From the NCBI RefSeq assembly GCF_902506605.1, contig NZ_LR733979.1:1437712-1501711 (forward strand): a stretch of DNA of 64,000 bases, written 5' to 3'. Numbering within the stretch: position 1 is the first letter of the stretch; the number at the start of each line of letters is the position of its first letter. This document shows, in pieces, positions 42,291 to 46,528 of the stretch. The notes below the pieces were generated by a model. It made no database searches. It saw only the letters and a list, made by a program, of their open reading frames with translations, and was not told where the DNA came from. Both the position numbers and the translations under genes were made by a program. The stretch is from Sphingomonas sp. AX6 (GTDB lineage Bacteria > Pseudomonadota > Alphaproteobacteria > Sphingomonadales > Sphingomonadaceae).

Positions 42291-43576
42291 TCCGCCTGTC
42301 CACCGCCGACGGATCGTTCGAACGCGATTTTCGCGCTCTGGTCGAAGCGCGTCGCGAGCCGGATGTGGATGTGGCGCGCGACGTGCGGATGATCGTCTCC
42401 GCCGTCCGCGACGAAGGCGACGCGGCAGTACGCGCCTTCACTCAGAAATTCGATCGCCACGATCTCGACGCCACAGGCTGGCGAATTGAACGCGCGGATC
42501 TGACCGCCGCGCTCAACGGGTTAGAGCCTGAACTTCGCGCCGCGCTCGAACTCGCGCGCGACCGGATCGCCGCCTATCACGAGAAACAGCGCCCGGCGGA
42601 CAGCGACTCCACCGACGCCGACGGCATCCGCACCGGCGCACGCTGGAATGCGGTCGATGCCGCGGGGCTCTATGTCCCCGGCGGCCGTGCGGCCTATCCC
42701 TCGTCGGTGCTGATGAACGCCATCCCCGCCAAGGTCGCTGGCGTTTCGCGGTTGGTAATGGTGACGCCGACCCCGGATGGCGAGATCAATTCGCTGGTCC
42801 TCGCCGCCGCCGAACTGGCAGGCGTGGACGAGGTGTGGCGGGTGGGCGGCGCGCAGGCAATCGCCGCGCTCGCTTACGGCTCCGGTCGGATCGCGGCGGT
42901 CGATGTAATCTGCGGCCCCGGCAATGCCTGGGTCGCAGAGGCGAAGCGCCAGCTTTACGGCGTGGTCGGCATCGACATGGTTGCAGGACCGAGCGAAATC
43001 CTGGTCGTCGCCGACGGCCGGAACGATCCCGACTGGATCGCCGCCGATCTGCTCAGCCAGTCCGAACACGATCCCACCAGCCAGTCGATCCTGATCACCA
43101 CCGATGCCGGGTTCGCGGATCAGGTCGCGCACGCGGTGGACCGGATGATCGGCACGCTGTCGACGGCGGATGTCGCGCGGCAAAGCTGGGACGCCAACGG
43201 TGCGATCATCGTTGCAGGCAGTTTCGACGAGGCTCCCGCGCTCATTAACGCACTCGCGCCCGAACATCTCGAACTGGCGATCGACGATGCGGAAGCGATG
43301 TTCGCGCGTGTCCGCCATGCCGGGTCGGTGTTCCTGGGACGCCACACGCCGGAGGCCGTCGGCGATTACGTCGCCGGGCCGAACCATGTCCTGCCCACCG
43401 GCCGCCGCGCGCGTTTCGCCAGCGGGCTGTCGGTGCTCGATTTCATGAAGCGCACGAGCTTCCTATCGCTCGACGCCGCGGGTCTGGCGAAAATCGGCCC
43501 CGCCGCGGTCGCGCTCGCAACGGCGGAAGGGCTCCCCGCTCATGCCCGATCGGTCGCGATCCGATTGGGGGACTGA
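42287..43576 (+). CDS. hisD: Histidinol dehydrogenase
   Basis: Zn2+- and NAD-dependent oxidation of histidinol to histidine. The 429 residues include [66 protein letters not shown], the Zn/catalytic region [13 protein letters not shown], and LAPEHLEL with GPNHVLPTG. Coupled to hisG by a 4-bp overlap; a palindromic element follows, then nusB. Confidence 0.96.
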
Positions 43577-43584
43577 ACTCACCA

Positions 43585-43665
43585 CCGTTCGCCCTTAGCT
43601 TGTCGAAGGGCTGTCCTTCTTTCTAAAGAAGAAGTGCAGGGCTTCGACAAGCTCAGCCCGAACGG
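43585..43665. repeat. Palindromic interspersed element between hisD and nusB
   Basis: Arms CCGTTCGCCCTTAGCTTGTC.../...AAGCTCAGCCCGAACGG pair over ~29 nt with few mismatches, and the centre has CTTCTTT-CT-AAAGAAG. This GTTCGGGCTGAGCTTGTCGAAG-type sequence (shown here in parts) recurs, decayed, at 8473-8505. Confidence 0.8.
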
Positions 43666-43689
43666 TCTTTTGTCGAACCGGAACCGAAT

Positions 43690-44148
43690 ATGCCAAGCAA
43701 GACATCGAAAACCCGCACTCAGGCCCGCGCCGCCGCCCGTCTCGGTGCCGTCCAGGCGCTGTATCAGCACGATATGGAGGGGACGGCGATCCCCGCCTTG
43801 CTCCACGAATTTCACCAGCACCGACTGGGCGCGACCATCGAGGACGTCGAATATGCCGACGCCGACATCATGCTGTTCGACGATATCGTGAAGGGCGTCG
43901 ACGCGCGCCGTGACGAGGTCGACGCCGCGATCACTGCACGCCTGGCGTCGGGCTGGACGCTGGAGCGCCTCGACAAGCCTATGCGTCAGATCCTGCGCTG
44001 CGGCACCTACGAACTGATCGCCCGCCACGACATTCCCAAGGCCGCGATCATCAGCGAATATCTCGACGTCGCCCACGCCTTTTACGACCGCAAGGAAGCG
44101 GGCTTCGTCAACGGCGTGCTGGATGCGGTGGCCAAGGCGGTTCGGTAA
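43690..44148 (+). CDS. nusB: Transcription antitermination factor NusB
   Basis: 152-residue all-helical RNA-binding protein acting in rRNA antitermination. RAAARLGAVQALYQHDMEG, ERLDKPMRQILRCGTYEL, HDIPKAAIISEYLDVAHAF and GFVNGVLDAVAKAVR are diagnostic. It follows hisG-hisD across the palindromic element. Its neighbour downstream is the structured-RNA candidate on the other strand. Confidence 0.95.
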   Translation: MPSKTSKTRTQARAAARLGAVQALYQHDMEGTAIPALLHEFHQHRLGATIEDVEYADADIMLFDDIVKGVDARRDEVDAAITARLASGWTLERLDKPMRQILRCGTYELIARHDIPKAAIISEYLDVAHAFYDRKEAGFVNGVLDAVAKAVR

Positions 44149-44167
44149 ACCCCTGCCTCTCTCCCGT

Positions 44168-44244
44168 CCGCTTGTTTCGAGCGAAGTCGAGAAACGTGGC
44201 TCGGCGTTAGGAATGCGTTTCTCGACCTCGCTCGAAACGAACGG
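44168..44244. repeat. Palindromic interspersed element after nusB
   Basis: Inverted arms 44168-44196 and 44216-44244, core TTTCGAGCGAAGTCGAGAAA. It is the same family as 49441-49519, the left arms being identical for more than 25 nt. May also serve to end nusB transcripts. Confidence 0.85.
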
Positions 44245-44289
44245 ATGTTTGAGGACAGCCCAAGGGACGGTTGAAATGTCGTCCAGGTG

Positions 44290-44740
44290 GGGCTGCGAAG
44301 GGTGATCTTTCGAACATCGCAGCGCAGCGTGCTTCCGGCACGTGAGCACCGAAGCGCAGAAAACCGCGCTTCCAAGCTCCGCATGGGCGGCATTGCGGCC
44401 GTCCCATGAAATGAGAGAGGTCGCCGAGGCCGTCTCCCGACGGTCCCGGCGACCCCAAACATGGTCAGCGGCCGGAGAGCTCCAGCCCGGGAGACCATGC
44501 GGACCGCTAATTCAAATGCTTCGATGCGTTGGCTGGAGGAGAATACCTCCCGCATCGTCACGGACGGAGGGCTTCCGTCCGTTGCACCAAATTAGCGGCG
44601 CGTCTCCCGAACGAACTGAACCGACCCCATTGCTGAACCATGAGACATCGGATCACCTCCTTTCGCTAGTTGAAGCTAATGTGCTTGAGCACGGGTAGAA
44701 GGTGAATCAAACCGGCGTGCAGAACAAGTCTTGTTTTACG
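44290..44740 (-). ncRNA. Candidate structured RNA with leader peptide frame
   Basis: Of the 646 bp between nusB and the next gene, this part has its own minus-strand promoter and eight successive stem-loops with 5-9 bp perfect stems: 44560-44582 (9 bp), 44522-44557 (7 + 5 bp nested), 44460-44499 (7 bp), 44419-44454 (8 + 5 bp nested), 44382-44408, 44351-44372 (7 bp), 44328-44342 and 44292-44323 (7 bp). Near the 5' end is GTGCT-CA-AGCAC (44681-44692). No T-run terminator was seen. I do not recognise the family; it could be an sRNA or a regulatory leader without a downstream gene on the same strand. Confidence 0.45.
44592..44648 (-). CDS. Putative 18-residue peptide with exceptional ribosome-binding site
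   Basis: Frame MSHGSAMGSVQFVRETRR then TAA. The ATG at 44648 is preceded, at 6-nt spacing, by GAAAGGAGGTGATCC (44650-44664), which is complementary over 15 nt to the conserved 16S rRNA 3' end. Such an extended match is far beyond what other genes here have. It lies about 90 nt after the predicted transcription start and just before a 9-bp hairpin. It may be a leader peptide or a ribosome-capture device. Confidence 0.45.
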   Translation of the reverse strand: MSHGSAMGSVQFVRETRR

Positions 44741-44746
44741 TCGCGA

Positions 44747-44776
44747 ATTATACGACCTTCATCGGTCTGGGCTGAA
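44747..44776 (-). promoter_or_regulatory. Minus-strand promoter of the structured RNA
   Basis: Perfect -10 TATAAT (44747-44752), 18-bp spacer, -35-like TTCAGC (44771-44776, three of six consensus bases). A 13-bp palindrome AACAAG-T-CTTGTT (44723-44735) lies just downstream of the expected start and could be an operator. Confidence 0.5.
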
Positions 44777-44794
44777 CGATCGGCATCCGCCGCA

Positions 44795-45307
44795 TCAGCG
44801 CCGACAATCCTCCACGACGCGTTGCACCTCGGCCCAGGTCGGCAGGATCAGGCCCGGCGTGCCTGCGACCTCGACCGCGAAACGCCCACGGCTGAATCCG
44901 ATCGCGTCGAGCAAATTGTCGCGCGCGGGCAGCAGCGCGACGACGTTCCCGCCCTGAGCGCGCGCAGGCAGCGCACGCGTTGCACTGGTCGTTCGGATCG
45001 TCATCGCATTCGCGTTCGAACTTCCCGCCCGTTCGAGCGCGATCTGATTACCGCCCGTACAGCGCATCGCAAATTGCGTGCCGAAGCGCGCAACGCTGCC
45101 GCCACCTTCGCGCGCATAACGCCAGTTGCCGGGCGTCGCCGTGCGGTCGGCCCAGTTGGGCGCGGGCGGCGGCGCGGGCACCGGTGCCGGGGCGGGAGCA
45201 GGCGCGGGGCTCGGTTCGGGAGGCGGGGGTGGTTCGGACGGACGCACGCAGGCGGCAAGCAGAACCAGGGGCGCAATGGCGACGAGCGGAGAAAGACTGA
45301 AACGCAT
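44795..45307 (-). CDS. Pro-rich lipoprotein of unknown function
   Basis: About 170 residues. The signal LSPLVAIAPLVLLAAC has a lipobox; next comes a Pro/Ala-rich wall-spanning linker (PPPPPEPSPAPAPAPAPVPA), then a compact domain with WADRTATPGNWRYAREGGGS, FAMRCTGGNQIALER and a closing TWAEVQRVVEDCRR. Two Cys in the domain could form a disulfide. ATG at 45307 fits the signal; 45319 is an alternative. No recognised family. Confidence 0.75.
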   Translation of the reverse strand: MRFSLSPLVAIAPLVLLAACVRPSEPPPPPEPSPAPAPAPAPVPAPPPAPNWADRTATPGNWRYAREGGGSVARFGTQFAMRCTGGNQIALERAGSSNANAMTIRTTSATRALPARAQGGNVVALLPARDNLLDAIGFSRGRFAVEVAGTPGLILPTWAEVQRVVEDCRR

Positions 45308-45397
45308 GGGAACCAGCATGGCCGATGCGCCGCGCGGGCTCAAGCCGCGATCAAGCCTGCGCGACCGAAAGACGCGCGGACGCGACCACCGCCCCCT

Positions 45398-46528
45398 TCA
45401 GCCAAAGGTCGCGTGCGGCAGCTCTAGCCGCACGATCAGCCCCTGCGCATCCCAGCGCCGTGTCATTGCCCCGCCCAGCTGACGCCGGACCACGGTATCG
45501 ACCATGCGCGATCCGAAGCCGCTATGCGTCGGCTCCGCTCCATCGGTCAGCGCCCCGCCACGTTCGCGCCATTCGATCGACCAGGCATCGGCTTCACGCG
45601 CGACCTCGATTTCGATGCTGCCTTCCACTTGGGACAGCGCGCCGTATTTGGCGGCGTTGGTGGCGAGTTCGTGGAACACCAGCGACATCGGCGTGATCAA
45701 GTGCGCGCCCACCGACACGTCTTCCCCGCCGATCCGGTGCCGCAATGCCACCGCATGGCGATAGGGGGCCAGCAACGTGTCGAACAGCGCGTGGAGGCCG
45801 GTTACGCCCGACGACGACGGCCGGTCGGTATCGGTGATCAAACCATGCGCGCGCGCCAAGGCGGCGGTGCGATCGACCAGATCCTGATGACCGCCCGTGC
45901 CATCTGGCTGGCTTGCAGAGAAATGGATCAGGCTCTGGAACAGCGCGAACAGATTCTTGATCCGGTGCGCCAGTTCGTTGGCGATCACGTCGCGCGCATC
46001 GGCATCACGCCGCGCCTCGATGATCGTCATGACGTTGGACGCGAGCACGCGCATCGTTTCCGCCTGGATCGGCGTCAGCCCCGCGCGCGGCACCCGGTCG
46101 ATCACGCACAGCGCTCCCAGCGGAATGCCCGCGGCGGTCACCAGCGGCGCGCCGGCATAGAAACGGATACCGGGTTCGCCGGTGACCAAAGGATTATCGG
46201 CAAAACGCGGGTCGAGCGTCGCATCGGAGACGACCATGATGTCAGGCATCCGCATCGCGTGCGCGCAGAACGACGTCGATCGCGGCGTCGCCTCCACCCC
46301 CAGCCCGATCCGTCCGAGAAAGCGTTGCTCCTCTTCCTCGACCAGGCTTACCAGCACGATCGGTGCGTCGCAAATCTTTGACAACAGCGCAACGACATCG
46401 TCGAACCGCCCGCCCCCGTCCCAATCGTTCAGCCCATGATCGACGATCGCGAGCGCACGCGCGGTTTCGCTTTCCGGAGGGAGCGCCGATGCCGGTGTTA
46501 GGGTAGGGTTGAACTTGTCCGCAGCCAT
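45398..46528 (-). CDS. GAF-domain sensor histidine kinase, HWE type
   Basis: 376 residues: GAF domain (about 30-180; APIVLVSLVEEEEQRFLGR, PLVTAAGIPLGALCVID) and an HWE-family kinase with phospho-acceptor His in NELAHRIKNLFALFQSL, N-box FHELATNAAKYGALS, and GFGSRMVDTVVRRQLGG. HWE kinases often feed the general stress response or light/redox signalling in alphaproteobacteria. ATG at 46528 is chosen; a TTG at 46612 would overlap uvrB. Downstream of uvrB on the same strand with a 64-bp gap. Confidence 0.88.
   Translation of the reverse strand: MAADKFNPTLTPASALPPESETARALAIVDHGLNDWDGGGRFDDVVALLSKICDAPIVLVSLVEEEEQRFLGRIGLGVEATPRSTSFCAHAMRMPDIMVVSDATLDPRFADNPLVTGEPGIRFYAGAPLVTAAGIPLGALCVIDRVPRAGLTPIQAETMRVLASNVMTIIEARRDADARDVIANELAHRIKNLFALFQSLIHFSASQPDGTGGHQDLVDRTAALARAHGLITDTDRPSSSGVTGLHALFDTLLAPYRHAVALRHRIGGEDVSVGAHLITPMSLVFHELATNAAKYGALSQVEGSIEIEVAREADAWSIEWRERGGALTDGAEPTHSGFGSRMVDTVVRRQLGGAMTRRWDAQGLIVRLELPHATFG

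Follow-up and report, generated by a model that had tools for sequence, protein, structure and literature searches.

The stretch of DNA analyzed here (hereafter the window; 64,000 nucleotides from Sphingomonas sp. AX6, contig NZ_LR733979.1) contains, between nusB and a gene for a lipoprotein-like protein, a region that an initial annotation had described as an independent structured small RNA (sRNA) on the minus strand. The lipoprotein-like protein (44795-45343, minus strand) is fast-evolving, with 31–53% identity in the relatives printed, and no Pfam family scored over its cut-off. A search of 43000-46000 for tRNA and tmRNA genes found none, and no Rfam family reached its gathering score in the window. 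Comparison with related genomes, together with predicted folding, indicates that the interval from about 44408 to about 44693 on the minus strand is a real, conserved, structured RNA. The features of the locus, listed 5' to 3' on that strand, are:

44724..44734, minus strand: palindrome ACAAGACTTGT, kept in an alignment of 30 related loci and overlapping a −35-like CTTGTT (44728-44723)
44699..44704, minus strand: putative −10 element CACCTT, seen in the alignments 17 nt past TTGTTC; candidate promoter role
44408..44693, minus strand: RNA of about 285 nt, its probable start placed by promoter spacing and its probable end by the terminator and the loss of conservation beyond it
44681..44692, minus strand: 5' hairpin H1 (GTGC/GCAC), with both-side changes in 5 of 6 pairs among 42 relatives
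44650..44664, minus strand: extended Shine-Dalgarno (SD) sequence GAAAGGAGGTGATCC, the complement of the 16S rRNA 3' tail
44592..44648, minus strand: 18-codon ORF MSHGSAMGSVQFVRETRR with stop codon TAA, recognized by in-frame stops in 163/163 loci and by frame comparison
44632..44642, minus strand: 5' strand of a long-range closing helix, CATGGTTCAGC, in codons 3-6, from partner permutation and the minimum-energy fold
44504..44598, minus strand: domain from the ORF to the 3' strand, CCGCTAATT/AATTAGCGG enclosing hairpins 44581-44561 and 44556-44523, from the predicted fold
44460..44499, minus strand: near-invariant hairpin CATGGTC...GACCATG, which excludes the long-range helix
44460..44469, minus strand: 3' strand of the closing helix, GCTGACCATG, just before the terminator, from permutation and folds
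44408..44454, minus strand: intrinsic terminator, hairpin 44454-44419 and tract CTCTCTCATTT, with both-side changes in 12 of 17 pairs

The minus strand of 44285-44740 has a predicted folding energy of −221.8 kcal/mol, compared to a mean of −173.9 kcal/mol in 100 shuffled sequences (z −7.15). As both strands beat all 100 shuffles (plus strand z −6.10), folding alone cannot pick the strand, and the minus strand was assigned from the conserved asymmetric features: ribosome-binding site, ORF and terminator. With 44285-44760 as a BLAST query, 35 of 61 genomes gave matches. All 35, the own genome included, belong to the genus, which was represented by 37 genomes; 0 of 24 genomes from other families of the order matched. 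The alignment of homologues that had been proposed as a check was built from 30 loci of these 35 genomes; five were left unaligned, among them G019, where only query positions 254-316 matched. Nearly all long matches end at query positions 352-363, i.e. about 44409-44398, at the terminator, and the conserved block is closed by a GC-rich hairpin with a CTCTTTTCATTT-like tract. The eight stem-loops originally listed from 44582 to 44292 are all present, but those at 44292-44407 were rejected as part of the RNA since they fall outside the conserved block, and query positions 402-439 are a genomic repeat. This repeat (44322-44359), 3' of the RNA end, has four other genomic copies (39–50 bases matched, 86–97% identity) and appears REP-like by eye.

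Two wider sets of loci were used alongside those of the genus. The type-A set comprises 165 distinct loci of the family, two of which are incomplete and were excluded from the ORF count. The class set comprises 70 alphaproteobacterial loci, which are the better-scoring part of the matches to the Rfam model RF01867 (CC2171), several of these matches not being included. An expression for SD plus start codon matched 65 of the 70, and these 65 entered the helix permutation, GANTC and ORF-frame counts; of the five without a match, four have a TTG start, preceded by the same SD in three and by the variant GAAAGGAGGTGCCC in one, and the fifth is without the motif. Both sets were sought with patterns or models containing the SD, the type-A motif additionally spanning the first codons to CATGG, so that conservation of the SD and first codons in them partly reflects how the loci were chosen. 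A less biased set is formed by the 30 genus loci, obtained by BLAST with the whole region.

The TATAAT to which a promoter role had been ascribed is present at 44752-44747 (minus strand) but is not kept in the 30-locus alignment, and was ruled out as a promoter for this reason. The palindrome that had been noted at the expected transcription start is both present (44734-44724) and conserved; the start itself, however, more likely lies near 44693 than near 44739, as the conserved upstream elements are the palindrome, a −35-like CTTG and a CACATT-like −10, and not TATAAT. The −10-like element reads CACATT in many relatives, and 154 of the 163 complete type-A loci have CAAGNCTTG 5' of the ORF. 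A GATTC site overlaps the start of the putative −10 CACCTT and is of the GANTC type, the methylation target of CcrM. At least one GANTC is located within −130..−55 of the ORF in 117 of 163 type-A loci, where 0.12 sites per interval are expected, and within −100..−25 in 24 of 65 class loci (expected 0.16). The middle base of the sites in type-A promoter-like regions is T in 74, A in 68, C in 41 and G in 8 cases. The palindrome ACAAGNCTTGT and the GANTC sites (44699-44734, and in relatives) may place the RNA under methylation-dependent, cell-cycle control.

For the covariation check, 42 relatives were aligned out of 67 references chosen, and 47 consensus pairs were counted; the remaining 19 of 66 predicted pairs, which make up a predicted SD-ORF hairpin that hardly varies among relatives, were excluded. 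The 47 pairs were formed in 95.7% of cases, compared to 39–50% with sliding partners, and both-side changes were found in 25 of the 47 as against 14.8 in shuffles; 0 of 500 shuffles reached 25. The count carries the reservation that it favors the consensus structure, which had been predicted from the alignment it was scored on. The support resides in the 5' hairpin, the central hairpin and the terminator. Hairpin 44556-44523 showed both-side changes in 8 of 9 counted pairs, hairpin arm 44581-44561 is absent in many relatives, and the outer CCGCTAATT pairing is taken only from the predicted fold of the window RNA.

The extended SD GAAAGGAGGTGATCC is complementary to the 16S tail over 15 nt, reaching beyond the GGAGG core, and the 7 nt from GGAGG to ATG give a proper spacing. 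A search of 31 genomes recovered the complementary tail GGATCACCTCCTTTC in two, each from a congener. The remaining 29, which include the own genome, yielded no match, and we take this to reflect missing 16S ends. The same tail appears in an oligonucleotide in an excerpt of a paper on 16S processing in S. meliloti (PMC6943124). The duplex of GAAAGGAGGTGATCC with the 16S tail is predicted at −29.7 kcal/mol, compared to −12.7 kcal/mol for a made-up plain SD. In the own-genome sequence searched, GAAAGGAGGTGATCC has one exact copy; two more sites appear with two mismatches, which is at chance level since the reversed control also matches once. GCGAAAGGAGGTGATCCGATGTCTCATGGTTCAGCA is unchanged in each of the 30 genus loci in the alignment, for which the BLAST query was the whole region rather than the motif. 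Within the family, a 29-nt core with up to three mismatches is found in 196 of 249 genomes, representing 81 of 96 genera.

The ORF that follows (44648-44592, minus strand) is conserved family-wide, and the initial annotation was thus wrong in finding no conserved gene on either strand. In every one of the 163 complete type-A loci, the ORF ends at an in-frame stop after 16-20 codons; the length is exactly 18 codons in 143, and the stop codon is TAA in 88, TGA in 58 and TAG in 17. Codons 1-3 and part of codon 4 are invariant in the type-A loci by construction, as the motif reaches CATGG, and the same first codons are also invariant in the 30 BLAST loci, chosen without that motif. Codons 7-18 vary: close pairs differ by 412 non-synonymous and 93 synonymous single changes, and this ratio of 4.4, set against a site expectation of 2.9 that is rough and with pairs that are not independent, gave no sign of purifying selection on the peptide in codons 7-18. 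An ORF of 14-35 codons was found in frame 0 in 64 of 65 class loci and in 17 of 65 in each other frame, and with one locus per family in 40, 11 and 7 of 41 (frame 0, then the others); the search models for these loci contain the SD, and ORF length is not built into them. In type A, the 14-35-codon range discriminates weakly (158/158 in frame compared to 76 and 101 of 158), and a range of 18-27 codons gives 155 in frame compared to 36 and 62 of 158. The peptides printed across the class have little in common past the initial M-S. What selection maintains in the ORF is its start, frame and length, and apparently not its peptide. In some relatives (L186, L189 and L242) a much longer ORF (55-58 codons) follows an extended SD of this kind, and its beginning is signal-peptide-like by eye; there the product may matter, and the ORF may have been co-opted as a small secreted protein.

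In the minimum-energy fold of the window RNA, CATGGTTCAGC in the first codons pairs with GCTGACCATG. Elsewhere the corresponding pairs are CATTGTCA/TGACAATG (in many loci), CATTGCC/GGCAATG, ATGAGATT/AATCTCAT, CGAGATC/GATCTCG, GTGAG/CTCAC and GTGAA/TTCAC. When partners were permuted among the 65 class loci, native pairs gave 14.1 compared to 10.8 for permuted ones (sd 0.34), with 0 of 5000 permutations reaching the native value. The same was found for 41 families (native mean 14.3, permuted 10.9, sd 0.44; 0/5000) and for the 28 families left after removal of the two commonest start types (12.5, 10.4, sd 0.41; 0/5000), and 9 of the 65 native helices fell below the permuted mean. These permutations show the predicted closing helix to be conserved across families as complementarity, not as sequence. 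In the window's branch, the 3' strand can pair locally with CATGGTC instead, an alternative that is absent in 85 of 159 family loci; this hairpin has no pair with both-side changes and varies too little for covariation. Across family loci the closing helix is predicted unevenly, with probabilities that range from near 0 to 0.91 and average 0.43 in the 74 loci with the local alternative and 0.32 in the 85 without.

The locus could also be read as an ordinary small-protein gene, i.e. a micro-mRNA with a very strong ribosome-binding site and the 18-residue peptide as its product. The conserved start, frame and stop and the strong SD are in line with this, and in an excerpt of a study on S. meliloti, 33% of 54 new translated small ORFs were on annotated sRNAs (PMC10117765). 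On the other hand, codons 7-18 vary freely, with amino-acid-changing differences exceeding silent ones, the class peptides printed share little beyond M-S, and the invariant first codons are accounted for by the closing helix; we regard this reading as rather unlikely.

The initial annotation could not place the RNA in any known family, which holds insofar as nothing exceeds an Rfam gathering score; below threshold there is, however, a full-length match to RF01867 CC2171 (36.3 bits, E 5.1e-5, 44417-44672; the gathering score of 75 is not reached). The alignment spans the full model, 1-159, and the 5' core is nearly identical. When the own genome was searched with RF01867, the window RNA was the best match at 30.8 bits, a small margin over the next at 28.1 bits, and the 3' half of the model was placed at 44535 rather than 44417; the other matches (28.1 bits or less) are presumably chance. 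As the score is weak by itself, the argument rests on the shared 5' core and the closing helix. The two RNAs share the 5' CAAC...GAAAGGAGGUGAUCC-start-UCUCAU core, the pairing of the first codons with the pre-terminator strand, and the terminator hairpin. They differ in that the ORF of the window RNA starts with MSHG and not VSHCH, in that it has GCUGACCAUG and not UGACAAUGG, and in its additional 5' hairpin and large domain between ORF and 3' strand. The RF01867-type pairing of a post-start segment with a pre-terminator segment was recovered from the cmscan alignment, the permutation and the fold. Judging from these likenesses, the window RNA looks like a distant, unannotated relative of CC2171.

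The class-wide search recovered the same core in other families, with a different ORF (VSHCH... in many) and a CAATGGAAGGGCC terminator; three of these relatives exceed the RF01867 gathering score of 75 (L193 with 90.5, L197 with 83.9 and L191 with 79.7 bits). At E ≤0.01, RF01867 matched 96 of 385 alphaproteobacterial genomes, 13 of them over the cut-off. Of 14 named controls, Caulobacter vibrioides and Deinobacterium chartae matched, one of them over the cut-off. D. chartae is an unrelated control that matches at E up to 0.01, and some weak RF01867 matches are due to chance. The motif GAAAGGAGGTGRTCCNNTGTC with one mismatch was found in 85 of 385 class genomes (reversed control 2, G010 and G480) and in 75 genomes of a 398-genome phylum sample (reversed control 1, G010); by a hand count from the kinship column, all 75 are alphaproteobacterial, out of 135 such genomes in the sample, and the 263 other genomes have 0. 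Matched genomes have one copy each, except G010, a member of the window's genus with both kinds: a Caulobacter-like form (L201, G010:C1:805112) and the Sphingomonadaceae form (G010:C1:2922049). The two forms are thus not simply alternative orthologues. Searches of the relatives for other Rfam families gave only SRP RNA and a neighboring tRNA over the cut-offs; below threshold were BASRCII26 at L203 (30.1 bits, gathering score 218, E 7e-4) and BjrC1505 (E 1.4 and 4.8).

CC2171 is reportedly described in Landt 2008. In the literature searched, exclusive of Landt 2008, we found no description of an ORF or of 16S complementarity in CC2171, and in the excerpts this literature comprises, CC2171/RF01867 occurs, coincidental text matches aside, only in a table of the Rfam 15 paper and in an sRNA table of Mesorhizobium huakuii, the latter listing a CC2171 match with RNA-seq coordinates (215 nt; PMC5596092).

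Alternatively, the RNA could be a regulatory sRNA that base-pairs with mRNAs, the ORF being secondary. It is structured and terminated, is without a conserved downstream gene, and belongs with a family entered as sRNA in Rfam. Against this, both strands of the closing helix differ among families, which leaves no shared seed, and what is conserved class-wide is the stretch that faces the 16S tail, although this stretch was also used to find the loci. We deem a base-pairing role distinctly unlikely. The designation as an independent sRNA stood with regard to the structured minus-strand RNA, the promoter-like region and the terminator, but the RNA is most simply read not as a plain antisense one but as organized around ribosome binding and a short ORF.

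Flanks of the 165 type-A loci show nusB downstream only in the own genome. According to crude ORF calls, 87 of 152 type-A loci have a same-strand and 65 an opposite-strand gene downstream, and among 30 class loci the split is 17 to 13, so that no downstream gene is conserved. It is very improbable that the RNA is a cis leader or attenuator of a neighbor gene, which was rejected on these variable downstream genes, or the 3' part of the upstream lipoprotein mRNA: 152 of 165 type-A loci do have a same-strand homolog of the lipoprotein-like gene upstream, yet a conserved promoter-like region separates it from the RNA, which its own terminator ends.

We lean, by a modest measure of confidence, towards a free-standing, terminated RNA of a CC2171-like alphaproteobacterial superfamily that would work through the ribosome. 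The extended SD would capture a 30S subunit via nearly the whole single-stranded 3' tail of 16S rRNA. Since the first codons must be unpaired for initiation, helix closure and ribosome loading would be mutually exclusive, and the RNA would have two states, empty-closed and ribosome-loaded-open, set by ribosome occupancy of the first codons. The short translation cycle, rather than the peptide, would be what counts. Since the sequence conserved class-wide is the ribosome-facing part, the conserved partner would be the ribosome itself, and the RNA would either read the number or kind of free 30S subunits or hold them.

A tentative elaboration, doubtful at present, is that the RNA is such a sensor or store: pairing with nearly the whole mature 16S tail, it would capture only tail-free subunits, and the closing helix would turn this capture into one of two states, open or closed. 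Such an RNA would be widespread and single-copy, and a peptide of no fixed sequence would be translated only for ribosome placement. The start-proximal GGAUC part of the 16S tail may be covered by bS21 or by the assembly factor Era, which binds GAUCACCUCC, the complement of the extended SD site. An excerpt of a structure study argues that bS21 would sterically hinder extended SD-16S pairing in E. coli (PMC13009471), and many Flavobacteriales, according to part of another paper, have an extended SD on rpsU (PMC9976891). With these findings and the Era binding, a sensor of tail-free subunits becomes a tangible possibility. As far as these two sources go, the extended SDs of Flavobacteriales rpsU and of Staphylococcus aureus mRNAs (PMC9976891, PMC13009471) resemble that of the window RNA in pairing past the core, but are on ordinary protein-coding mRNAs, whereas the window RNA is a separate short unit with an unconserved peptide. 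Similarly, rnTrpL/peTrpL of S. meliloti, as presented in an excerpt (PMC10117765), is a short RNA with a small ORF, from which the window RNA differs in that no attenuated gene follows, the ORF is not leaderless and the peptide sequence is unconserved.

The distribution suggests that CC2171, an orphan Rfam entry, is one end of a larger, mostly single-copy RNA superfamily of Alphaproteobacteria, most of it below the Rfam cut-off (exceeded in 13 of the 96 matched genomes) and organized around the 16S tail and a short ORF that keeps its length and not its sequence. An unexplained sRNA would thereby become a testable ribosome-binding RNA. The superfamily might account for some of the "translated sRNAs" of Alphaproteobacteria. 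According to an excerpt of Schrader 2014 (PMC4117421), two predicted ncRNAs of Caulobacter are translated.

Around nusB, two imperfect inverted repeats were seen by eye at 44165-44245 and 43590-43665, CGTTTCTCGACTTCGCTCGAAACAAG-like and CTTCGACAAGCTCAGCCCGAACGG-like, respectively, of a kind that is common in such genomes.
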